From the NCBI GenBank assembly GCA_017999915.1, contig JAGNKX010000012.1, positions 1 to 64,000 on the forward strand: a stretch of 64,000 bases of DNA. The letters run 5' to 3'. Made by a program: the position numbers and the translations under genes. The notes below the pieces were generated by a model, which was not told the origin of the DNA, made no database searches, and saw nothing but the letters and a program-made list of their open reading frames with translations. The first letter of the stretch is position 1. Each line of letters begins with the position of its first letter. Of this stretch, positions 2,863-64,000 are shown piece by piece. Source of the DNA: Spirochaetota bacterium. Its GTDB lineage: Bacteria; Spirochaetota; UBA4802; UBA5550.

Positions 2863-5397
2863 ATGGCCGCTGCCAAGATAGACCGGGAAACCGTAAATAG
2901 CACCTTTAAAAAGCTGTACCTCTACACCGATGGGGCCAATTACCTGTTCATCATCCCGTGCTTCACGGTTTACCTGGTCTTCCTCCTTGACATAAACAGA
3001 TCGGGACTGCCGATTTTTTTCGCCATAGTCATCGTAGGGTGTGTTCTTTCATTTATCTTGTCCCGCCACATGTTCTACAACAAGCTCATCAAGCCCATTA
3101 CGGTTTATCTGGACAAGCTGATCGACGGCCAGGAATTTTCCGAGGAGGAATATGACAGCGCGCGGGAGGCGATATTTTCGCTGCCGCGGAAGCACTCCGT
3201 ATCCGCCATCGGGCGCTGGATCATCGCCCTTATCGGCGTTTTCGCGGCCGTTAACCTCGCTTTCGACGTGGACTTCCACCAGAATTTCAACAGCGTGGTG
3301 ATCCTGCTCATCAACTGCATCCTCAGCGGCGTGCTCTTCTATGTAGCCCCGGACCTGCTCCTTGACACCATTTACCGTCACGGCGTGTTTGACAGGAGAA
3401 TCGAGAAAACCTCCTACAAGGGAAGGCTTGCTATGCGGATATCCGTCATCGTGATGGCGGTCACCTCGATGCTTCTTATAGTCATAGCAACCGTGGTCTT
3501 CAACAGCGGCTACCGGTCCCTCAAGCAATCTTATACAAACCAGATGCGCAACATCGCCGGGATAATCAACGAGGACCTCGACCGCTTCTTGGGCGAGCGG
3601 GTCAGCGACGCCGAGATACTGGCCGGCAACAGGATCGTCATCAACGGCGCGGCCGGCGGGGACGGGGAATCCCTGGCCCTGCTGAAGAAGATCCACGGCT
3701 CCTATGGCGTGTACGAGAACGTCTTCATCGCCACGCCCTATTACGATTCGTCGATCATCGTCGGGACGGCCGCCGGGTCCGCCGGCGTCAGGTACCGACA
3801 GGCGGGATTCGGCGACAACATCGACGCGAGCCTGGAGGGGAACACCCGCGTTAGCGGCGGCGGGAAGTCGCCCATCACGGGACGTCCCATAATAATGATA
3901 ACCGCGCCGATCAAGAACGGCGGACGGATTGTGGGCATCTTCGGGTTCATGATAGAGCTCGATAAGTTCGCCGACAAGATGATCAAGAACATTAAGATAG
4001 GCGAGACCGGGTATCCCTTTATTACGGACGGCAGGGTGATTCTGGCCCATCCCAATAAAAAAATGATCCTTACGCCCCTCAAGGGATACGCCTGGGGCAA
4101 GAGCGTTCTGTCTTTGAAGAGCAAGTCATCCTTTTCCTACCGCTGGAACGGTGAGAAGAAATTCCTTTACTTCCTGAAAAATGAAAAAAACGGCTTCAAC
4201 GTGATATCCACCGCGAACCTTGCGGACATAAACAGCGAGGTCTGGTCGTCGCAGCTCTACATGCTGGTCATGAGCATTTTCGGCCTGGCCCTCGTGGGCT
4301 CCTTAATGTACTTCCTCGTAAACCGCAAGCTCCGTCCCCTCGTGACCTATCGGGAGATAATCGAGGGTGTTTCCCACGGGAACCTTGACCAGGATATCGT
4401 AATCGTGTCCGACGATGAGATCGGCCACATGTCGGCCATGCTCATCCTTTTCATCTCGCGGCTGAAGGATTCGATCAGGAACATCAAGGCCATATCCACG
4501 GAGATGGCGACCTCTTCGGGCGAGATGTCGGCGACGACGGTGTCGTTTTCCGATAACGCCCAGAGCCAGGCGGCCTCCGCGGAAGAAGTGACCGCGACGG
4601 TGGAGGAGGTGTCGGCGGGGGTCGAGAACATCGCCCACAACGCCTCAGCCCAGTACATGAACCTGACGGCCCTTATCGACATGCTGACCCGGCTTTCCGA
4701 CATGATCAACTCAATGGGCGCCCGCCTGAAGGAGGCCTTCGCCCAGACCGACACCATAGCGGGGAAGGCGCGCATCGGCGAGGAGCTCATCCGCGAGATG
4801 GACACCAGCATGTCCAAGATAATATCGAGCTCGGCGGAAATGGCCAATATCGTCGGCATCATCAACGACATCTCCGACCGGATAAACCTCCTCTCCCTCA
4901 ACGCCGCCATCGAGGCGGCCCGGGCCGGCGAACAGGGCCGGGGCTTCGCCGTGGTCGCGGACGAGATCTCGAAGCTCGCGGACCAGACCGCCCAGTCGAT
5001 CAAGGATATCGACACGCATATCAGGAACAATAACGACGAGATCGGCCGCGGCATCGAAAACTCGAGGAAGACCGTGGAAACCATAAGCACGATCATCGAC
5101 GGGGTTTCCGCGATCAACAACCTGATGAATTCGCTCCTTTCCTCCATGAAGGACCAGCTCGAGATCAACAGCACGGTCAACGCCAAGGCCGGCGACGTGA
5201 AGATCGGGGCCGACCAGATACGCGGCGCCACGGAGGAGCAGAAAACGGCGGTAAGCGAGATAGTGCGCTCCGTGTCCAATATCAACGAGCTGACCCAGTC
5301 GAACGCTTCGGGAGCGGAGCAGATGGCCAGCACCGCCGAAAACCTCGCCGGCATGGCCGAAACCCTGAAGCAGGCGACGGATTTTTTCAAGGTGTAG
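2863..5397 (+). CDS. Methyl-accepting chemotaxis protein with extra N-terminal membrane segments
   Basis: An 844-residue chemoreceptor. It starts with about four hydrophobic segments (residues 25-70 and 115-165), an unusual lead for this class. A further membrane helix (about 190-215), a periplasmic dCache-like sensor (about 220-450), a closing helix, HAMP (about 480-540) and the long cytoplasmic signalling coil follow. The hairpin tip carries the conserved [18 protein letters not shown] signature near residue 680, which contacts CheA and CheW. No C-terminal CheR/CheB-tethering pentapeptide is obvious. It is a stand-alone gene, convergent with the MATE gene. The ligand is unknown; the dCache fold commonly binds amino acids or carboxylates. 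Confidence 0.93.
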
Positions 5398-52735: not shown

Positions 52736-54223
52736 ATGATGGAACGATATATCGATTATGCCATAATCGCCGCGTACCTGGTCGGCGTGACCGTTTTCGG
52801 GATCCTCGCCGGCGGGAGGCAGCGCTCCGTGAAGGACTATTTCCTCGGCGGGAAGAGCCTTCCCTGGTGGGCGGTGGGATTTTCCATCGTGGCCAGCGAG
52901 ACGAGCACCCTCACGTTCATCAGCATCCCCGGCCTGGCCTACAGTACGGACATGCGCTTTCTCCAGCTCGTCTTCGGCTATTTCATCGGAAGGATCATCG
53001 TGAGCCTGGTCTTCATCCCGGCCTACTACCGGGGCGACCTTGAGACAGCCTACGATTTTATCGGAAAGCGCTTCGGCTTTTCCCTGAGGAAATTCTCGTC
53101 GTCGGTCTTCATCATCACCAGGGTGCTGGCGTCTGGGGTGCGCCTCTTCGCCACGTCCATCCCCCTCCATATCATCACCGGCTGGAGCTACACCGCCTGC
53201 ATCCTCCTCATCGGGGCCTTCACCCTGGCCTACACCTACGTCGGCGGCCTCAAGGCCGTGGTGGCCATGGACGTTGTGCAGCTCTTCATCTACCTCGGCG
53301 GCGCGGCCCTCTCCCTGTATGTCATCCTGGGACACCTGCCGGGCGGCTGGAGCGACGTGGTCGCCCGGGCAGCGGCGGGCGGGGCCGACAAGTTCAACGT
53401 CGTCAATTGGGGCAACGGCGGCGGCATCGCCGGGTTCCTGTCGTCGCCCTATACCCTGGTGGGAGGGGTTCTGGGCGGCACCTTCCTGACCATGGCCTCC
53501 CACGGCACGGACCAGCTGCTGGTGCAGCGGCTCCTGGGGTGCCGGTCGAAGGCCGACAGCCAGAGAGCCCTCATGCTGGACGCGTCCTTCATCCTGTTGC
53601 AGTTCCTCTTTTTCCTGGTCCTGGGAATCGGCCTCTACGCCTTTTACGACGGCGCGTCCCTGGCGAAGCTTGGCCTTTCATCGTCCGACGAGGTCTTTCC
53701 CAAGTTCATAGTGGAGGAGCTCCCGGTGGGCGTCTCCGGCTTCGTCATAGCCGGGGTCCTCGCCTCGGCCATGGGGTCCCTGTCGTCGTCGATCAGCTCC
53801 CTGGCGTCGTCCACCTGCCTCGACCTCTTCGCCCTTACCGCGAAGGATAAACAGATCGATGAAAAGAAGGGGATCTTCTGGTCCCGCTTCTTCACCCTGG
53901 TCTGGGGGATCGTCCTCATCGGCGGGGCCATGCTCTTCACCGACACGAAGAACCCGGTGGTGGAGCTGGGCCTGAAGATTGCGTCCATTACCTACGGCGC
54001 CCTCCTGGGGACCTTCTTCCTGGGCCTCCTGACCAAAACCACCGGGGCCATCGACGCCTTCGCGGGATTCATCGCGGCCCTGGCGGTCATGGCGGCGGTC
54101 CTTTTTTTTACTACTATAGACTACACCTGGCACACCTTCATCGGCTGCGCCGTTTGCATCGTCACGGGCATCCTTGTTCATAGGGCCCGGGCCATCTTCA
54201 CCGGACAGGGAGATAAAAAATGA
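52736..54223 (+). CDS. Sodium:solute symporter family protein 1
   Basis: A 495-residue SSS/SSF-family carrier with about 13 membrane helices. The N-terminal YFLGGKSLPWWAVGFSIVASE and the middle SHGTDQLLVQRLL segment are typical of this family, and SMGSLSSSISSLASS supplies the conserved small residues of the sodium site. Such symporters import sugars, amino acids or carboxylates using the sodium gradient. Its last four bases overlap the start of a second symporter, showing translational coupling. The solute is not deducible. Confidence 0.93.
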   Translation: MMERYIDYAIIAAYLVGVTVFGILAGGRQRSVKDYFLGGKSLPWWAVGFSIVASETSTLTFISIPGLAYSTDMRFLQLVFGYFIGRIIVSLVFIPAYYRGDLETAYDFIGKRFGFSLRKFSSSVFIITRVLASGVRLFATSIPLHIITGWSYTACILLIGAFTLAYTYVGGLKAVVAMDVVQLFIYLGGAALSLYVILGHLPGGWSDVVARAAAGGADKFNVVNWGNGGGIAGFLSSPYTLVGGVLGGTFLTMASHGTDQLLVQRLLGCRSKADSQRALMLDASFILLQFLFFLVLGIGLYAFYDGASLAKLGLSSSDEVFPKFIVEELPVGVSGFVIAGVLASAMGSLSSSISSLASSTCLDLFALTAKDKQIDEKKGIFWSRFFTLVWGIVLIGGAMLFTDTKNPVVELGLKIASITYGALLGTFFLGLLTKTTGAIDAFAGFIAALAVMAAVLFFTTIDYTWHTFIGCAVCIVTGILVHRARAIFTGQGDKK

Positions 54224-55998
54224 AACTGACCATTATCGACGGGGCGGTCATCGGCCTTTATTTCGCCTTCAACATCGCCATCGCCCTCTGGCTCCGGAAG
54301 CGCGCCACGAAGAGCGTTGACGATTTCTTCGTGTCCGGCCGCAATGTCTCCTGGTGGCTCGCCGGCACCTCCATGGTGGCCACCACCTTCGCCGCGGACA
54401 CGCCCCTGGTGGTCACGGGCCTGGTCGCCAAGAACGGCATCGCCGGCAATTGGATCTGGTGGAGCATGGTCTTCAGCGGCATGCTCACGGTCTTTTTTTA
54501 CGCGAAGCTCTGGCGGCGGGCCGGCGTCCTCACCGATGTGGAGTTCGCCGAGATCAGGTACGCCGGGAAGCCGGCCGCCTTCCTCCGCGCCTTCCGGGCC
54601 CTCTACCTGGGGTTCCCCATCAACCTCATCATCATGGGGTGGGTGAACCTGGCCATCGTCAAGATACTGATGAACGTCCTGGGCATCGCCAAGGTGGAGG
54701 CCCTGGGGATCGTGGTGGTCATCATGGTCATCACCGCTTCAATATCCACCATATCCGGCCTCTGGGGCGTCCTCTGGACGGACCTGTTCCAGTTCGTCCT
54801 CAAGATGGGGATGGTGATCCTCCTGGCGGTCTTCGCCGTGGGCGCCAGCGGCGGCATGGATACCCTGCTGGGACGCCTCCGCGAGATAGACTCCGCGCGC
54901 AGCACCGGCTCCATCCTCTCCCTGGTGCCGGAGGCCGATTCCGCCTGGATGCCGCTGATCACCTTCTTCGTGTTCATCGCGGTGAACTGGTGGGCCTCCT
55001 GGTATCCCGGCGCGGAGCCGGGGGGAGGGGGCTACATCGCCCAGAGGATCTTCTCGGCTAAAAACGAGAAGCACTCCATCCTGGCTACCCTCTGGTTCAA
55101 CATCGCCCACTATGCCCTCCGGCCCTGGCCCTGGATCGTGGTGGCCCTGGTGGCGGTGGTACGCTTCCAGGACGATCCCCAGTTCGCGGCGGACCCGGAG
55201 TCGGGCTACATACGCATCCTCATGTCGGACCTGCCGGTCTACCTCCGGGGCCTCATGCTCGCTGCCTTCGCCGCCGCCTACATGTCCACCATCGGCACCC
55301 AGCTCAACTGGGGCGCCAGCTACATCGTAAACGACGTGTACAAGCGCCTCATGGCGAGGGACCGGGACCAGAAGCACTATGTCAGGGTCTCCCAGGGGGT
55401 GACGCTCCTCCTCATGGCGCTCTCCCTGGTCGTGACCTTTTACATGGAGTCGATAGCGGAGGCGTGGAAGGTCCTCATCGCCCTGGGGGCCGGCACCGGC
55501 CTGGTCTATATCCTGCGCTGGTTCTGGTGGCGGATAAACGCCTGGAGCGAGATCTCCGCCATGTCCGCTGCCTTCATTACATCGCTGACCCTGCAGTTCG
55601 GCTTCCATTTCAACGAGCAGGACCCCCGCGATTTCGCCTGGCTCCTCCTGGTCACGGTGGCGGTCACCACCGCGGTGTGGCTCGCCGTGACGCTCCTCAC
55701 AAAGCCGGAGCCGAAGGAGACGCTCCTCGCGTTTTACCGGAGGGTGCGGCCCAACGCGCGCCTCTGGGGTCCCATCGCCCGGGAAGCAACGGACATCGTT
55801 CCCGAGAAGGACGGCCTCTTCAACCTGGCCAACTGGCTCCTCGGCGTTGCCATGATCTATGCCTTTCTCTTCGGCACCGGGAAGGTCATACTGGGCAGCG
55901 CCGTCGTCGGCATCCTCTTCATTGCCTGCGGCATCGTTTTCGGGGCTATCATCTATTTCAACATAAACCGGCGCGGGTGGGAGAGCATCGGGAAGTGA
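54220..55998 (+). CDS. Sodium:solute symporter family protein 2
   Basis: A 592-residue SSS-family carrier, longer at its C-terminus than its neighbour. The N-terminus has DDFFVSGRNVSWWLAGTSMVATTFAAD split at the glycines, and the middle reads NWWASWYPGAEPGGGGYIAQR. About 14-15 membrane helices are visible. Sequence similarity to the first symporter is low, so this is a pairing of distinct family branches, not a recent duplication. Co-translation with a four-base ATGA overlap suggests that both are needed together, for two substrates or as a complex. Confidence 0.93.
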   Translation: MKLTIIDGAVIGLYFAFNIAIALWLRKRATKSVDDFFVSGRNVSWWLAGTSMVATTFAADTPLVVTGLVAKNGIAGNWIWWSMVFSGMLTVFFYAKLWRRAGVLTDVEFAEIRYAGKPAAFLRAFRALYLGFPINLIIMGWVNLAIVKILMNVLGIAKVEALGIVVVIMVITASISTISGLWGVLWTDLFQFVLKMGMVILLAVFAVGASGGMDTLLGRLREIDSARSTGSILSLVPEADSAWMPLITFFVFIAVNWWASWYPGAEPGGGGYIAQRIFSAKNEKHSILATLWFNIAHYALRPWPWIVVALVAVVRFQDDPQFAADPESGYIRILMSDLPVYLRGLMLAAFAAAYMSTIGTQLNWGASYIVNDVYKRLMARDRDQKHYVRVSQGVTLLLMALSLVVTFYMESIAEAWKVLIALGAGTGLVYILRWFWWRINAWSEISAMSAAFITSLTLQFGFHFNEQDPRDFAWLLLVTVAVTTAVWLAVTLLTKPEPKETLLAFYRRVRPNARLWGPIAREATDIVPEKDGLFNLANWLLGVAMIYAFLFGTGKVILGSAVVGILFIACGIVFGAIIYFNINRRGWESIGK

Positions 55999-56187
55999 CG
56001 GCCGGGGGTATCACCCCATGCCATTTTTATAACCTGGGAAAATTCTCCTTTACAGAATTTGCCGATTTTGGCTTTTTCGTATTATTACCTTGTGACGAGG
56101 TCCCTATACATACACAAGGGCCGTGACGCCCCGGGCCGCGTCGAGGGAAGCCAAGGCTTCCCGCTAAGCGAATAGGAGGTCTGCCTC

Positions 56188-57210
56188 ATGAATCCCATCA
56201 AGTACTCCCTGGCCAAAGCCATGGTCAAGCGGAGCGTCAGCCATTCCGATTTCAACGCCGCTGCAGCGGAGCGCAATTTCGACGTGGACCGCGCGGTGAG
56301 CGACTACAACAACAGCTATTACTTCGCGTGCCTCGGTGCCGACGGCACGGCCGCGATCCTGCGCCTGGCGGGGCGCGGCAGCGGGGCCTTCGAGCTCTGG
56401 TTTTCCCTGAACCTGCCGGGCCGGGGACGGCTTAATGTTCCGGTGACGCTGCAGAAAACGGTGAAGAGCTTCGAGAAGAGCCCCCTCGGAATCATCTGCC
56501 GCGAGCCTGAAAAATCATTAGCGATATCCTTTAACGGCACCGTGAAAGACGAGAACGGGAAATCCGCGAAGGTCAAGTTCAACGCGGAGCTCACATCGGA
56601 TTTCCCCATCTTCCATTTCACCAACGATGCGGACCCCGCGCCGATGGCGCGCTCCATGGCGGAGGAGAAATGGACGAAGCAATGGTTCCTCACCCTGCAG
56701 GGCATGCACCAGCATCATTACGAGCAGGGGGGCGACCTTACCGGCACCCTCTCCGTCGACGGAAAGACGCGCACCCTTAAAATGAAATTCTTCCGCGACC
56801 ACTCCTTTGGACCCCGTTCCTGGGACTCCCTGGACCGTCACCTCTGGCTCAGCATGTGCCTTGACGACGGCTCCTTCATTAACCTGAGCCTTCCGGAATA
56901 TCCCTTCATCAAGATCAGGGCCGGGTTCCACGCCAAGGACGGCCGCTACACCCCCGTCGTCGGGTCAACGAGCTTCGCCGAAATAGTGGCCGGAACGCCG
57001 CCGCCGCCATCCTTCTATTTTGTCCTGTACCTGGCCGACGGCAGGCGCCTTCGGGGTTCCTGCGTCAGGGGACCGGAGTTCACCTGGCTCATGGATGACG
57101 TGTACCGCGTCTTCGAGTGGGTGTCCTTCTATACCGTGGAACAGGTCCAGGGCAGGGGGATCTGCGAATTCGGCTACAACGTTCGCCGCTTCGATTATGG
57201 CCTCGCCTGA
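56188..57210 (+). CDS. Partner protein of the PEP-synthase-like enzyme
   Basis: A 340-residue soluble protein of unknown function. The central motif FFRDHSFGPRSWDSLDRHLW (about residues 200-220) and MHQHHYEQGGDL point to a beta-rich lipocalin-like domain, similar to an uncharacterised region I recall next to or fused with PEP-synthase-like phosphotransferases in other organisms. It overlaps the next gene, such an enzyme, by 14 bases. The conserved His and Asp residues could be catalytic. A GGAGG site precedes the ATG at 56188. Confidence 0.65.
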   Translation: MNPIKYSLAKAMVKRSVSHSDFNAAAAERNFDVDRAVSDYNNSYYFACLGADGTAAILRLAGRGSGAFELWFSLNLPGRGRLNVPVTLQKTVKSFEKSPLGIICREPEKSLAISFNGTVKDENGKSAKVKFNAELTSDFPIFHFTNDADPAPMARSMAEEKWTKQWFLTLQGMHQHHYEQGGDLTGTLSVDGKTRTLKMKFFRDHSFGPRSWDSLDRHLWLSMCLDDGSFINLSLPEYPFIKIRAGFHAKDGRYTPVVGSTSFAEIVAGTPPPPSFYFVLYLADGRRLRGSCVRGPEFTWLMDDVYRVFEWVSFYTVEQVQGRGICEFGYNVRRFDYGLA

Positions 57211-59620
57211 GATCTCCGCTGGCATACCGGCGCTGGTGCGTCTTTGCGACCTTGCCGAGGGAGAAGGGGGCGGCAAGGCGGCCGGCCTCAGGGCGCTCCA
57301 GCTTGCGGGCCTGGACGTGCCGGAAGCCCTGGTGATCCTCGACCCGGCCCGGGTCACCGGCGGCGACCTCGCGTCGGTCCCCGGCCTCATCGGCCCGGGC
57401 CCCTGGGCGGTCCGCTCCTCCGCGTCCGACGAGGACGGGGAGGGGGCGTCCTTCGCCGGGCAGTTCAGCACCTATCTTAACATCGATACAACTGGTGGCC
57501 TCGATGAGGCGGTCCGCTCCTGCGTGATGTCCGCCGCGTCGGACCGCGTCAATTCCTACCGCGGAGCCGTCGCCGAGGGCCCGGCCGCGCCCATGGCTGT
57601 GGTGGTCCAGCGCATGGTGACTCCTCGCTATGCCGGCGTCGTCTTTACGGCCGATCCCATTACCGGCGACGACGGCTATGCCGTCATCGAGGCGGTTCAC
57701 GGCCTTGGCGAGGCCCTGGTGAGCGGCGAAAGCCTCGCCAGCCGCTACCGCGTCGACGGCGGGGGCGCCATCATAGAGGAGGCCCCGGCTCCGAATGGGC
57801 CGGTCATCGACGCCGATCTCGTCCGGGAGCTGGCGCGCCAGGCGCGCATGGCGGCCGGGCGCATGGGGCGGCACCTGGACCTCGAGTGGGCCGTGGACGA
57901 AGCCGGGCATTTGTACTGGCTCCAGGCGCGGCCCATAACGACCCTGGAGGATCCCTCGGAGGGCGAGTTCGATTATCCGGCGCCGGCGGACCGGTTCTTC
58001 ACCCGCGCCAACATCGGCGAGATGATGCCCGGCGCGGTGACGCCCCTGACCATGAACGTCTTCGGCGACGCCATCGATTTCTGCATCCGCCATTTTTACA
58101 GCTTCACGGGGACCCTGACGCGGGCCACGCGGAAGGAGAGGTTCGTCGTTTCCTTCGGCGGCCATCTCTTCCTCAACCTGACCCAGATGTTCCTCATGGC
58201 GGACCGGGTCCTCGGCTCCTCGCGTAAAAGATTTGAGCAGAATCTCCTGGGCCATACACTGGACGAGGAGCCGCCGTTTTCACCGGTCCCCTTCGCGGTG
58301 AGGCTCATCAACGGCATCCGCATGGGATGGTACGTCATGATGAAGGGACCGTACCTCCGCCGCCTGGAAAGGACGGCGGCGTCCTTCACGATCGACCTGT
58401 CGGAAAGCGATCCCCTGCGGCTCTACGAGGCGATCGAGAGCCGCATCATGATCCTGAACCTGGCCTATGCCTGGCATCTCTGCGTGAGCACCCATTCGGG
58501 GGTCATGAACGGGATCTTGCAGGAAATTCTGAAAAAGGGCGGCATCCCGGAGGAAGAGCTCGATCCGGCGCTGACCTCGCTCCTGGCGGATATAGACGGG
58601 ATCGAGAGCGCGGCGGTAGTGAAGACCCTGGAGGATATCGCGGCCGCACTGGCCGGAGACGCCGCCGTCCGCGATGATTTTACCGCAATGGCCGCGGAGG
58701 ATGCGGCCCGGTGGCTCCGGGGTCCGTCAAGCGGCGTCCATGGGAAGGCCTTCGGCGCCCTCCTGGAGCGTCACGGCCACCGGTGCATCCGCGAGGCCGA
58801 GCTCAGGGAAAAGGACTGGGGCGAGGACCCGTCGCAGCTGGCGGCCATGGCGCAGCGCATGGCCGCCGCCGGCGTTTCTCCTAGGCCGAGGCATGAGGAC
58901 CCGGTGCGGGCCTTCCTCGGAGCAAACCCGGCCGTATCGGGGCGCGCCTTCAACTGGGCGGTGAAGCAGGCCCGTGCCGGCGTCTTCGGCCGCGAGCACT
59001 GCAAGTCCCTGGTGATACGGATCCAGAGCAGGTTCAAGCACGCCTACCGGCGCCTGGCCGAGATCCTGTGCGAGCGGGGCGTGCTGCTCGACGGGGACCT
59101 AGTCTTCTTCTTTACACGCCGCGAGCTCGGCGAGATCGTGCGCGCCGGGGACCGTTCCCTGGTGCGGAGGGCCCTGAAGCGGCGGCGGCTTCTCCCGGAG
59201 CAGATGTCACGGCGCTATCCCGATGTTTTCCGCGGCGCTCCGAAACCCCTGGAATCGGCACCGGCGGGCGGCGCCGGAACGGTCATACAGGGCATGCCCG
59301 TCAGCGCCGGCGTCGTGCGCGGCCCAGTCCGCCTGATACACACCGTGGACGACGCGGAAGCCCTGAGGCCCGGCGAGATCATGGTGGCCTCCTTCACGGA
59401 TATCGGCTGGACCCCCTATTACGGCATCGCCGGGGGCCTCGTGACCGAGACCGGGTGCATGCTCTCCCACGGCGCGGTCGTGGCCCGGGAATACGGATTG
59501 CCCATGATCACGGCCGTGCCCGGGGTGCTGGGAGCGGTGGCCACCGGCGACATCGTGGAGCTGGACGGCCGCCGCGGCGCAATGACGGTGATCGAGCGCG
59601 CGAAGGGTTTTGAGTCCTGA
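57197..59620 (+). CDS. PEP-synthase / rifampicin-phosphotransferase-like enzyme
   Basis: An 807-residue phosphotransferase of the PEP synthase / pyruvate phosphate dikinase superfamily. The N-terminal ATP-grasp domain (about 10-300) has GGKAAGLR, WAVRSSASDEDG, VQRMV and LEWAVD with LYWLQARPIT. A helical linker (about 310-690) follows. The C-terminal swivelling domain (about 700-805) has catalytic His758 in GCMLSHGAVVAREYG. No PEP/pyruvate-binding barrel is present, as in rifampicin phosphotransferases, so a His-phosphate is passed to an unknown acceptor. Start ATG 57197 overlaps the partner gene; the longer frame reads the wrong frame of that gene. Confidence 0.85.
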   Translation: MASPEISAGIPALVRLCDLAEGEGGGKAAGLRALQLAGLDVPEALVILDPARVTGGDLASVPGLIGPGPWAVRSSASDEDGEGASFAGQFSTYLNIDTTGGLDEAVRSCVMSAASDRVNSYRGAVAEGPAAPMAVVVQRMVTPRYAGVVFTADPITGDDGYAVIEAVHGLGEALVSGESLASRYRVDGGGAIIEEAPAPNGPVIDADLVRELARQARMAAGRMGRHLDLEWAVDEAGHLYWLQARPITTLEDPSEGEFDYPAPADRFFTRANIGEMMPGAVTPLTMNVFGDAIDFCIRHFYSFTGTLTRATRKERFVVSFGGHLFLNLTQMFLMADRVLGSSRKRFEQNLLGHTLDEEPPFSPVPFAVRLINGIRMGWYVMMKGPYLRRLERTAASFTIDLSESDPLRLYEAIESRIMILNLAYAWHLCVSTHSGVMNGILQEILKKGGIPEEELDPALTSLLADIDGIESAAVVKTLEDIAAALAGDAAVRDDFTAMAAEDAARWLRGPSSGVHGKAFGALLERHGHRCIREAELREKDWGEDPSQLAAMAQRMAAAGVSPRPRHEDPVRAFLGANPAVSGRAFNWAVKQARAGVFGREHCKSLVIRIQSRFKHAYRRLAEILCERGVLLDGDLVFFFTRRELGEIVRAGDRSLVRRALKRRRLLPEQMSRRYPDVFRGAPKPLESAPAGGAGTVIQGMPVSAGVVRGPVRLIHTVDDAEALRPGEIMVASFTDIGWTPYYGIAGGLVTETGCMLSHGAVVAREYGLPMITAVPGVLGAVATGDIVELDGRRGAMTVIERAKGFES

Positions 59621-60856: not shown

Positions 60857-62890
60857 CTATTTTTTTGCGTCGCCCCTGACCGCAAGGGGATACTCCCTGA
60901 ATGCCGTGATGATGGCGCCCGCCGTCTCCCGGTCTATTAATTCCTCAAGGTCGGAGCCGTCCCTGCAGGATGAGATCATCTCGACGATTTTGACGGCTGT
61001 TTCCCTGTCGCAACGGATCTTTTGGGCGAGCAGATCATAATTGAAATTATTGCCGGCAGAATCTCCGCCGCTGCAGGCAAGGGTCATTTTGACAAGGGAA
61101 AGGAGAAGGGTGTTCGTCTTACCCGTGGTTGATTTCATCCGCCCGATGATATTCAGGTAATTGCGCTCCGAATCGTGGTGCCGCCTCGCGAGGGTCTCAA
61201 GAAGCTTTCGGGCGAACTCCGGATTGTGTTCGATGAGGGCGTCCAGGTTGTCGGCCCTGGCGACGGCGAGAACGCACTGGCCGCTGCATACCGCCGTGGC
61301 GAGGCGGGTCTGGTTGCCCAGGATGGCCATCTCGCCGAAAATATCCCCCCGCCCCATGGTGGTGAGGAGGACCTGCCCCCCGCGGGGGAGCTTCTTCATG
61401 ATGTTAATCTTGCCCTTCCGGATAAGGTAGAACTCATTGCCCCGCTCGCCCTGCCTGAAAACCTCGTGGCCGGAGGGAAAGGTGTACTCCTGTTCCATTA
61501 CGGATACCGGCCTGATGAAGAGCCGGCGGATGTCCCTTGAGCCGGGAAGGTTGAGGTTGTAGGCAAGGCCCCGGCTGAGGCGATACAGGTGATAGCGCAG
61601 GAGAAAAAGACCGAATCCCGGCGGCCGTGACGTGAACCTGACCAGGGTGCCGTTGAATTCGTCGTCGCCGCCGTGCCGGTCCAGGGCCACGACGCCTTCC
61701 AGCACGGGAGACGAGAACCTGGAACAGTAGAGAATGCATTTTACCGGGCTCCCGGGGGCCAGGGGGGCCGGTGTCTTGAAAAAACTGTTCTGTCCCGTGA
61801 CGTGATAGGTCACGGTGTCGACAACGTCGTCCTTGTCCGGCGAGTCCACCTCGATGTTGATGACCGCGTCAATGATTATGGGGATGCGGATGATGCTCTT
61901 TTTGAAATACTCCGGATTGATAAGGCCCACGGCCAGCAGGTTAAAGGCGTAAAGACCGGGGAGAAGGATGAACAGCATCGTCGCCTCAACCGGCGTGACG
62001 GTTGCCGGGATGATCGGCGCCCTGCTTTTCATCACCGCGAAGGCCGCGGCCGTAAGGGCTAGGGCCCCGATGATGGCCCACTTTGCCGGGGTCACGTGCA
62101 GGGCGAAAAAAGGCACATGGTCCGTGTTCCGGGTTCCCAGTGAGCGGAGGATCCACCGTTCGAACTGGGGCTCCCTGTCGATGGACCTCCAGTCCTCGAT
62201 TGCAAGACCCTTTTCCCGCAGCTCGTCCCCGGATGGAAACACCTGCGACCTGGCCAGGAGGTACTCCATCAGGACAATAAGAAAGACCAGTATCAGGGGC
62301 ACATAATAGGGCATGGTCCCGCCCCGGTATAGCAGGGAATCATAGGCGCCGTGGAGGAGAAGGGGAGCGCCAAAGCCGGCAATGACGCCCGCGGCCCTGT
62401 TTACCGCTGATTTGGACAGCTTCACCATCGACAGGAAATACCCCATGAGTCCGCAGGAGAGGATATGGAGGGGCACGGAGCTGATGAGCCGCACCGGCAG
62501 TATCGAGGAGTCGCGGGAGAGGGCGTAGATTATGTTCTCAAGGGCCGCGAAGCCGAGGCCGAGAAACATGGCGGATACGATCCCGTTCATTACGGAAAAG
62601 TCATGCTTCTTCCGGCAGATAAGAATCCCTATGACAACAAGGGCGCCCGTTTTTTCCACCAGGGCGGCCTGGACAAATCCCCTGATCAGGGCGTTGCCCG
62701 GAGGGATAAGACCACGGAAAAATAATCCGGCGGTAAAAAGAATGCAGGCGAGCAGGACCCCGTGGAAGAAAAACTCCAGGTGTCCCAGGAAATCGGACTT
62801 CACCTGGAAATGGCGGCGGTAAAAAAGATATACCGCCGCAACCGGAATAAGGCCGGCCGCCAGGGCCGGCGCTATTGAAGATGCGCTCAA
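60857..62890 (-). CDS. PrsW-like membrane protease fused to cyclic-nucleotide-binding domain
   Basis: A 677-residue membrane protein. Residues 1-220 hold about seven helices with PrsW-type features: Glu near residue 79 (ALVEKTGAL), FAALENIIYAL and the later HGAYDSLL, matching the intramembrane glutamic protease/CPBP layout. The EE pair of motif 1 is reduced to VE-K. Two more helices (about 270-345) and a soluble linker (about 350-465) follow. A cNMP-binding domain (about 470-585) has the phosphate-binding GEMAILGNQTRLATA, then a helical end. The start is taken as TTG 62890, overlapping the upstream stop by four bases, because the first ATG would remove the protease motif. Confidence 0.8.
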   Translation of the reverse strand: MSASSIAPALAAGLIPVAAVYLFYRRHFQVKSDFLGHLEFFFHGVLLACILFTAGLFFRGLIPPGNALIRGFVQAALVEKTGALVVIGILICRKKHDFSVMNGIVSAMFLGLGFAALENIIYALSRDSSILPVRLISSVPLHILSCGLMGYFLSMVKLSKSAVNRAAGVIAGFGAPLLLHGAYDSLLYRGGTMPYYVPLILVFLIVLMEYLLARSQVFPSGDELREKGLAIEDWRSIDREPQFERWILRSLGTRNTDHVPFFALHVTPAKWAIIGALALTAAAFAVMKSRAPIIPATVTPVEATMLFILLPGLYAFNLLAVGLINPEYFKKSIIRIPIIIDAVINIEVDSPDKDDVVDTVTYHVTGQNSFFKTPAPLAPGSPVKCILYCSRFSSPVLEGVVALDRHGGDDEFNGTLVRFTSRPPGFGLFLLRYHLYRLSRGLAYNLNLPGSRDIRRLFIRPVSVMEQEYTFPSGHEVFRQGERGNEFYLIRKGKINIMKKLPRGGQVLLTTMGRGDIFGEMAILGNQTRLATAVCSGQCVLAVARADNLDALIEHNPEFARKLLETLARRHHDSERNYLNIIGRMKSTTGKTNTLLLSLVKMTLACSGGDSAGNNFNYDLLAQKIRCDRETAVKIVEMISSCRDGSDLEELIDRETAGAIITAFREYPLAVRGDAKK

Positions 62891-64000
62891 ACCGTTTTCT
62901 TGTTCTTTTTCCTGATAATGTTGATCGCCATAATCGCCCCTATGCTGATAATGACGCCGCCGATTATGATGCCCCATAGAACAGCCGGACGAACCGAACC
63001 GATATGCAGGTATGCCGTCAGTCCGGAAGCCGGCTCGGGCCCGTAGGCGGCGCAGAGGAGCCACGCGTTTTGCGAGCAGTAGGTCTCCCCTTGTGAAAGC
63101 CACCCGGGGTCTGTCTGAGTCATCGATCCGGTCTGGCCCTTGAAGTAGGTAGTTTGGGCAGACATGCCGGGAATAAAAAATATATTTTTATCGGCGCTCC
63201 AACTGGATCTCGTTGCTGCTAACTTCATCATTCCTTGTGAATAAACATACACCGAATCATTTCCGCAATTCGTCTCGCTGCCTGTTATTGTATTCCCTGT
63301 TGTGTCGCAGCCGGACCAGAAGGGCGTATTTCTTCCGCTTGCATCAACCAGTGTTGCAATGGATGCCTTGAGCTTTTTGTTTACCAGATCTCCCCAGTTA
63401 TCCGCGATTATGGTCCCTCCGGCCATGGTAATGGGAATGCTTGCCGAGAATCCATATGCTTCAGGCATATTTCGAATCGATAGGCTTGCACTCTTGCAGA
63501 TAAAGGCGGTGTAGGGAGCCTCCAGCCCTGATTTGCTTCCGACGGCCGCGCATTTTGCATCAACTCCATCGGTGCCGCCCATGATGCCGGTATACTGCCC
63601 GGCGCTGTAGAGGACGACGCGGTACGAACAGAGCACGGTCACATCTGTCACGTCCTTTGTAGCTTTTCCGCTGCCATTGATGACGCGGCACGGTTTAATC
63701 CCGGCCTGTGACCTGATGGTTACATTATAATCCGAGTCCTTTACCACTGGCTCCTTGAAGGTGAAGTTCCCGTTCGCGTCCATGGAGATATCATCTCCGG
63801 CGTTGTTTTGCAGAATGATGCTTCCTTCTTTGAGGCCCTTTACCGTTCCGCCGATTTTGTATGCTATGGTGGAACAGTTCACTTCAAGATTTACGGGCCC
63901 GTCCATCGGACCTTCGGCGTTATTGACGGTGCAGGATTGTTCATTCGGCTTGGAAGCCATGGTGACCCTGTACCTTCCACCCTTCAAAATCGCCTGGTTG
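62887..64000 (-). CDS. DUF1554-like repeat surface protein (partial, N-terminus outside window)
   Basis: The frame runs out of the right edge, leaving at least 370 residues. Two tandem bacterial-Ig-like units are visible: IGGTVKGLKEGSIILQNNAG, NGNFTFKEPVV, then IKPCRVINGSG and VTVLCSY, with an earlier unit ending LEVNCS. Next comes a Cys-rich domain (about 130-320) resembling DUF1554, best known from Leptospira surface proteins: GVDAKCAAVGSKSG, then FWSGCDT. A C-terminal membrane helix and a KKNKKTV tail close the protein. It likely displays a ligand-binding domain at the cell surface or in the periplasm. It overlaps the PrsW-like gene by four bases. Confidence 0.8.
   Translation of the reverse strand, partial: NQAILKGGRYRVTMASKPNEQSCTVNNAEGPMDGPVNLEVNCSTIAYKIGGTVKGLKEGSIILQNNAGDDISMDANGNFTFKEPVVKDSDYNVTIRSQAGIKPCRVINGSGKATKDVTDVTVLCSYRVVLYSAGQYTGIMGGTDGVDAKCAAVGSKSGLEAPYTAFICKSASLSIRNMPEAYGFSASIPITMAGGTIIADNWGDLVNKKLKASIATLVDASGRNTPFWSGCDTTGNTITGSETNCGNDSVYVYSQGMMKLAATRSSWSADKNIFFIPGMSAQTTYFKGQTGSMTQTDPGWLSQGETYCSQNAWLLCAAYGPEPASGLTAYLHIGSVRPAVLWGIIIGGVIISIGAIMAINIIRKKNKKTV

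Follow-up and report, generated by a model that had tools for sequence, protein, structure and literature searches.

Which reaction is catalysed by a phosphotransferase that resembles phosphoenolpyruvate (PEP) synthase, lacks the PEP barrel and is encoded in overlap with a beta-rich protein? The question is raised by two genes, here called gene 1 and gene 2, in the window, i.e. the whole stretch of 64,000 nucleotides that was analysed, which lies on contig 12 (JAGNKX010000012.1) of a Spirochaetota genome of 5.46 Mb in 29 contigs. The original prediction, made from the DNA letters, had described them as a pair with no known reaction. The enzyme type, the partner and the conservation of the pair were given correctly, while the reaction can now be narrowed by way of the partner's superfamily, which contains 25-phosphosteroid lyase (25-PSL). 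We consider it probable that the pair is an ATP-dependent dehydratase, in which gene 2, a dikinase of the rifampin phosphotransferase (RPH) type, would phosphorylate a lipid-like alcohol and gene 1 would eliminate the phosphate. Since the partner belongs by fold and motif to a superfamily containing 25-PSL, the reaction with the best support is a phosphorylation with subsequent loss of the phosphate by elimination.

The dikinase-like gene and its overlapping partner

Gene 1 (56188-57210, + strand, 340 aa) is preceded by AGGAGG, a strong ribosome-binding site at 56174-56179 (+), 8 bases ahead of its ATG. Gene 2 (57197-59620, +, 807 aa) starts with the ATG at 57197, within gene 1 and without a clear ribosome-binding site of its own, so that the two sequences overlap by 14 bp (57197-57210, +). 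This agrees with the earlier claim that the partners are translated together.

In the gene 2 product the Pfam domains PPDK_N (E 1.3e-39) and the PEP-utilizers mobile domain (E 2.3e-17) were recognised. No PEP/pyruvate barrel was found among its Pfam domains and the His domain is C-terminal; thus the protein does not have the barrel architecture of PEP synthase, and the ATP-grasp and swivelling-His domains without barrel described at the outset were recovered. The relatives in the PDB were rifampin phosphotransferase (E 5.6e-51) and PEP synthases. As in RPH, an ATP-grasp domain is followed by a helical substrate-binding region and a C-terminal swivelling His domain, and gene 2 is predicted to phosphorylate an organic hydroxyl. 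The PDB alignment was made with the entries 5fbs-5fbu, which are labelled phosphoenolpyruvate synthase and which we take, from the residue numbers of the paper, to be the Listeria RPH. In this alignment Lys22, Arg117, Thr136, Arg666, Glu667 and His825 of RPH correspond to Lys27, Arg73, Thr92, Arg599, Glu600 and His758 of gene 2, where the equivalent of Lys22 lies beyond the printed alignment and was placed by the GGK motif. The Arg599-Glu600 pair (58991-58996, +) matches the RPH residues which contact the product phosphate, and His758 (59468-59470, +) matches the phosphohistidine. According to the RPH study, the first five of these RPH residues are important by mutagenesis and His825 is catalytic (PMC4844700). 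Since the RPH catalytic residues are kept in gene 2, both half-reactions are expected, from ATP to the phosphohistidine and from the phosphohistidine to the acceptor.

The domain order and the catalytic residues are those of RPH, whereas the Lys-Arg spacing in the ATP-grasp domain is 46 residues (Lys27 to Arg73, 57275-57415, +) instead of the 95 in Listeria RPH, a partner gene is present, and the RPH cut-offs are far from reached. The NCBIfam model RIF_Ptrans_rph gave 233 bits (cut-off 999) and a second RPH score was 169.9 (cut-off 1700); PEP synthase (TIGR01418) gave 179 bits (cut-off 739.75), PigC 234 (1300) and RedH 239 (1350). Since the scores for these four enzymes are alike and far under the cut-offs, gene 2 is none of them by name.

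Recurrence of the pair

The shortened Lys-Arg segment proved to be the marker of a clade. In a tree of 13 gene-2-type proteins (G001 was left out), the ten with a spacing of 46-48 residues form one clade with 100/100 support, apart from three with a longer spacing (87-94), although identity within the clade is only 32-38%. Seven of the ten full-length members have as neighbour a gene from the wider superfamily of gene 1, and both gene orders occur. The three unpaired members form a single clade and all come from one genome, G300 (L052-L055), in which three complete copies of gene 2 and one fragment occur and gene 1 is missing; in two of the three full copies Cys replaces the Arg equivalent to RPH Arg666. 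Natural fusions of the two genes, mentioned in the original prediction, were not seen in the bacterial set, all ten full-length gene 2 reading frames being 788-857 aa long, and the literature search for invertebrate homologues or fusions gave nothing useful.

A search with the single gene 1 sequence returned, apart from the gene of the window itself, only a decayed remnant in a relative (2 of 59 genomes; 2 of 296). The remnant, in G016 of the same family as the window genome (L014, ~3488-3830, -), has an internal deletion and a frameshift, with no gene 2 nearby. A scan of named genome contigs yielded one gene 1 relative, at locus L015 of a Bacillota metagenome-assembled genome, and there a gene 2 homologue follows one base after. 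The absence of co-occurrence of the two families in other genomes had been set beforehand as the refuting outcome. Among 200 genomes of that Bacillota order gene 1 was full-length in seven and gene 2 (>500 bits) was present in at least five; both were present, and adjacent, in four, gene 1 alone in three and gene 2 alone in one (Fisher P 2.7e-6, in a table that includes the genome which led to the order). The contig-end fragment of G364 and the weak match of G448 (E 6e-4) were counted as gene 1 absent; the gene 2 counts leave out G443 (145 bits) and the fragment L055 of G300, and the longer-type matches G070, G035, G003 and G001 were excluded as lying outside the clade. The gene 2 counts in this order, in the 296 genomes of the window's phylum and in 338 Bacillota genomes are lower bounds, because in many genomes just 3-5 candidates were scored. 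The spacing from gene 1 to gene 2 is -4 to +14 bp in the Bacillota order and -14 bp in the window. The pairing is more than chance and it recurs across phyla; the refuting outcome did not arise.

In the window's phylum the gene 2 profile detected at least two further clade members, of which G000:C6 lies in the window's own genome and the other in G007, a genome of the same family. Beside each of them stands a gene that carries the motif RDHSWG, in reversed order in G007, and a gene of the short-chain dehydrogenase/reductase (SDR) type lies near both pairs. These partners are barely seen by the gene 1 profile (E about 0.003-0.008) and match 25-phosphosteroid lyase along their entire length, with E 3.1e-28 and 8.5e-41. 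In NCBIfam Rv3169_fam (cut-off 150) the lyase homologue from the pair in the window's genome reached 338.9 bits. Since the pairing spans divergent partner types and both gene orders, a functional link is favoured over simple operon inheritance.

Among 398 Bacillota genomes the gene 1 profile found G296 and one weak match (E 1.6e-4), and among 338 the gene 2 profile, at E 1e-90, found G296 and at least six longer-type matches (304-321 bits) in five genomes. On viral contigs the gene 1 profile gave 50 pattern matches, none of them a relative, and on plasmids no gene-2-type protein was obtained at E 1e-40 with a query from L066. As read by eye, an AraC-type regulator is encoded near the pair at L036 and L037, and at L037 a corrinoid-binding-like and a methyltransferase-like protein come after it.

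Gene 1, its superfamily and the kinases beside it

The gene 1 product is predicted to be a phosphate-eliminating lyase of the AttH/25-PSL fold, with weak DUF7065-DUF7064 similarity: its Pfam scores (DUF7065 21.7, DUF7064 15.7) are below both gathering scores (27 and 24.7), and its homologues at L015 and L036 pass DUF7064 (45.0 and 53.6). A structure model obtained from two sequences (pLDDT 52.8, pTM 0.55) was beta-rich by DSSP, and the RDHSFGPRSW motif was located at residues 203-212 (56794-56823, +), both as first described. Foldseek related the model to AttH (2ich, E 7e-6). In the fold comparison Z was 18.4 for AttH, 16.0 for kievitone hydratase, 15.2-15.9 for pericyclases of the Fsa2/Phm7/CghA type and 15.4-15.6 for 25-PSL (~250 residues), the last having the highest identity (16%) among the 14 rows with Z >15. 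As modelled, gene 1 has a two-domain fold like that of 25-PSL, tied with hydratases and pericyclases.

When the gene 1 family profile was compared with PDB sequences, the top match was 25-phosphosteroid lyase, with a weak E of 0.06 and an alignment on RDxS[FW]G, the motif formed in gene 1 by Arg203, Asp204, Ser206 and Gly208. Asp204 aligns with Asp176 of the lyase entry 9fzn; in 9g4c, the title of which names phosphate and the alkene product, this position is Asn. From these two entries the equivalent Asp is probably catalytic. Profile-profile comparison of the gene 1 type with the lyase type matched the motif region with E 2.6e-5 over 66 columns, and with a probability of 90% and E 1.5e-6 over 39 columns. 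In an alignment of 11 proteins of both partner types, which left out the three unpaired gene 1 proteins, Gln180, Gly182, Arg203, Asp204, Gly208, Arg210 and Gly246 are invariant. In the unpaired gene 1 homologues the Asp204 position is Asn, Thr and Asn, while it is Asp in all five paired ones (Fisher P 0.018). Judged from sequence and model, gene 1 has retained the motif of the superfamily containing 25-PSL and also its fold; that it works like the 25-PSL/Rv3169 family is better supported than its curated membership, the Rv3169_fam score being 22.5 against a cut-off of 150. None of the papers listed by the literature search mentioned DUF7064 or DUF7065, and for 25-PSL it returned papers of 2021 and 2024 only, none on structure.

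Of 198 genomes from the phylum, six contain lyase-type genes, eight in all. Two of the eight are those of the sister pairs, and in all five loci of the other six a protein with APH and SCP2 (sterol carrier) domains is encoded within ~1.3 kb. These APH-SCP2 proteins near 25-PSL-like genes (L078-L082) are kinases into which a sterol-carrier domain is built; for the one that was compared with the PDB, from L078, the best matches were an APH-like protein (9fsg), 3ats and, lower, ACAD11. On plasmids the lyase type was found in 14 records, of which seven with an annotated match were examined: in two of them the lyase-type gene overlaps a gene for an APH-type phosphotransferase, and in two more it stands next to a PEP-utilizers His-domain gene, where the one that was scanned showed no ATP-grasp. 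In a fifth a phosphotransferase is encoded ~2.9 kb off, and the remaining two have none within 3.5 kb. On the Rhodococcus plasmids L091 and L092 several PEP-utilizers His-domain genes cluster with lyase-type and AMP-binding genes; since no ATP-grasp was detected in the scanned His-domain genes of L092, these may be parts of two-component dikinases. An APH gene is likewise the neighbour of a DUF7064/7065 gene in Novosphingobium. In M. tuberculosis, according to two reports, Rv3168-Rv3169 form an operon (PMC5340868) and Rv3168 is of the APH type (PMC3691515).

Proposed reaction, alternatives and surroundings

From the domains, catalytic residues, linkage and superfamily read in the sequences we infer a phosphorylated alcohol and the elimination of its phosphate. 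The ATP-grasp domain of gene 2 would pass the beta-phosphate of ATP to His758, and the swivelling domain would move the phosphate from His758 to the helical substrate domain, where a hydrophobic substrate, similar to a lipid, an isoprenoid or a sterol, would be phosphorylated on a hydroxyl with release of AMP and Pi. Gene 1, as a two-domain lipocalin-like (AttH-fold) protein, would bind the phosphoester and eliminate phosphate to give an alkene, with Asp204 predicted to be essential. A dikinase spends two phosphoanhydrides and, in comparison with an APH-type kinase, this could help to drive the formation of a high-energy tertiary phosphoester. The hydrophobic alcohol is suggested only by relatives, i.e. 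by SCP2 domains, SDR neighbours and acyl-CoA and lipid genes.

Several observations weigh against the proposed dehydratase. In G300 three full copies of gene 2 occur without gene 1, and for three copies of gene 1 there is no gene 2; because these three gene 1 loci share neighbours, their loss of Asp204 may be a single event. The gene 1 model is of low confidence (pLDDT 52.8), and that of gene 2 is unusable (pLDDT 33). Direct similarity of gene 1 to 25-PSL is non-significant, reaching E 0.06 at best with the profile; the single-sequence search of the PDB with gene 1 returned nothing relevant, the profile-profile similarity is limited to 39-66 columns, and gene 1 scores far under the curated Rv3169_fam. 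The Novosphingobium DUF7064/7065 protein, which represents the closest annotated family of gene 1, does not find 25-PSL in the PDB, and there is no indication of the substrate in the window.

Furthermore, the fold is common to kievitone hydratase and the pericyclases at equal Z, with AttH highest. Gene 1 could on this basis be a hydratase, isomerase or pericyclase acting on a lipid- or polyketide-like compound, gene 2 phosphorylating the product or substrate for trapping or activation. We regard this as unlikely, though as the most serious of the alternatives, since genes of the wider superfamily repeatedly have phosphotransferases of more than one family as neighbours, for which a reaction independent of phosphate would have no use, and since 25-PSL aligns on the conserved RDxS[FW]G motif. 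The architecture and catalytic residues of gene 2 would also suit the modification or inactivation of an antibiotic or other xenobiotic, as by rifampin phosphotransferase, with gene 1 as a binding or delivery protein. This is improbable: RPH, as far as is known, acts alone, whereas seven of the ten clade members have a partner, the RPH scores of gene 2 are far too low, and the neighbours of related lyases include SDRs, SCP2-type kinases and acyl-CoA genes. No more credit can be given to a ligase of the PigC/RedH type, which would activate a substrate by phosphorylation and condense it with a second one, gene 1 binding or preparing one of the two. Its RedH and PigC scores equal that for RPH, but they too are far under their cut-offs; no pyrrole-pathway gene is among the identified neighbours, which encode transporters, a methyltransferase and a protease, and the lyase-type partners in the sister pairs argue for elimination.

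The proposed dehydratase has a parallel in Sterolibacterium denitrificans, where a kinase (25-HSK) phosphorylates the tertiary C25 alcohol with a Keq of about 0.34 for the phosphoester step and a lyase eliminates the phosphate, the lyase gene being unknown in 2021 (PMC8449060). Gene 1 shares the fold and RDxS[FW]G motif of 25-PSL, and the sister pairs carry full-length 25-PSL homologues. However, 25-HSK is a 43-kDa kinase of a phosphotransferase family which makes ADP, and no lyase candidate is reported near its gene (PMC8449060), while the kinase in the window is an RPH-type dikinase whose gene overlaps that of its partner. RPH is described as a member of a small-molecule dikinase family. The RPH-related two-component phenol dikinases HpeHI, CreHI and PpsAB are comparable to gene 2 in that they act on organic hydroxyls; HpeHI phosphorylates phenols and forms AMP (PMC12167813). 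In these systems the dikinase is split in two, whereas gene 2 is a single chain and its partner a lyase-fold protein. ACAD10/ACAD11 and LvaA-LvaC remove a hydroxyl by phosphorylation and subsequent elimination of phosphate (PMC11342911), but their kinase is of another family and their lyase is an acyl-CoA dehydrogenase. The Rv3168-Rv3169 operon combines an APH-type protein with a member of Rv3169_fam, the family that contains the sister-pair lyase homologue; it differs in its APH-type kinase, and gene 1 is under the Rv3169_fam cut-off. The literature search revealed no paper in which an RPH-type kinase is linked to a 25-PSL-family lyase.

More tentatively, ATP-driven dehydration by a kinase and a lyase may be widespread, the lyase superfamily (25-PSL/Rv3169/DUF7064-7065) having recruited unrelated kinases: APH proteins, with or without SCP2, and a distinct clade of RPH-type dikinases spending two phosphoanhydrides for an otherwise unfavourable (e.g. 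tertiary) phosphoester. If so, many uncharacterised lyase-family neighbours, including Rv3168-Rv3169, would be lipid or isoprenoid dehydration modules, and the family link yields a concrete hypothesis for that operon. A testable reaction would be provided for an unassigned PEP-synthase-like clade and for a lyase-fold family mostly labelled hypothetical or DUF. Phosphorylation followed by elimination, a strategy known both from sterol side chains under anaerobic conditions and from 4-hydroxy fatty acids, would be shown to be built with an unrelated dikinase, which would lift the limit that a Keq of ~0.34 sets on tertiary phosphoester formation.

Upstream of gene 1, the overlapping symporter pair of the original prediction consists of two SSS genes (52736-54223 and 54220-55998, both +) that share 4 bp; paired SSS transporters like these (52736-55998, +) may act as a single system. 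Nothing ties them to gene 1 and gene 2, a gap of 189 bp lying between, and other neighbours are found at the Bacillota homologues whose surroundings were listed. A promoter and terminator scan gave counts near those of shuffles and was not used. Downstream of gene 2 lies a convergent gene for a TIGR00027-type methyltransferase, and at 60857-63103 (-) a 748-aa protein is encoded which combines a PrsW-type intramembrane protease domain with a C-terminal cyclic-nucleotide-binding domain.

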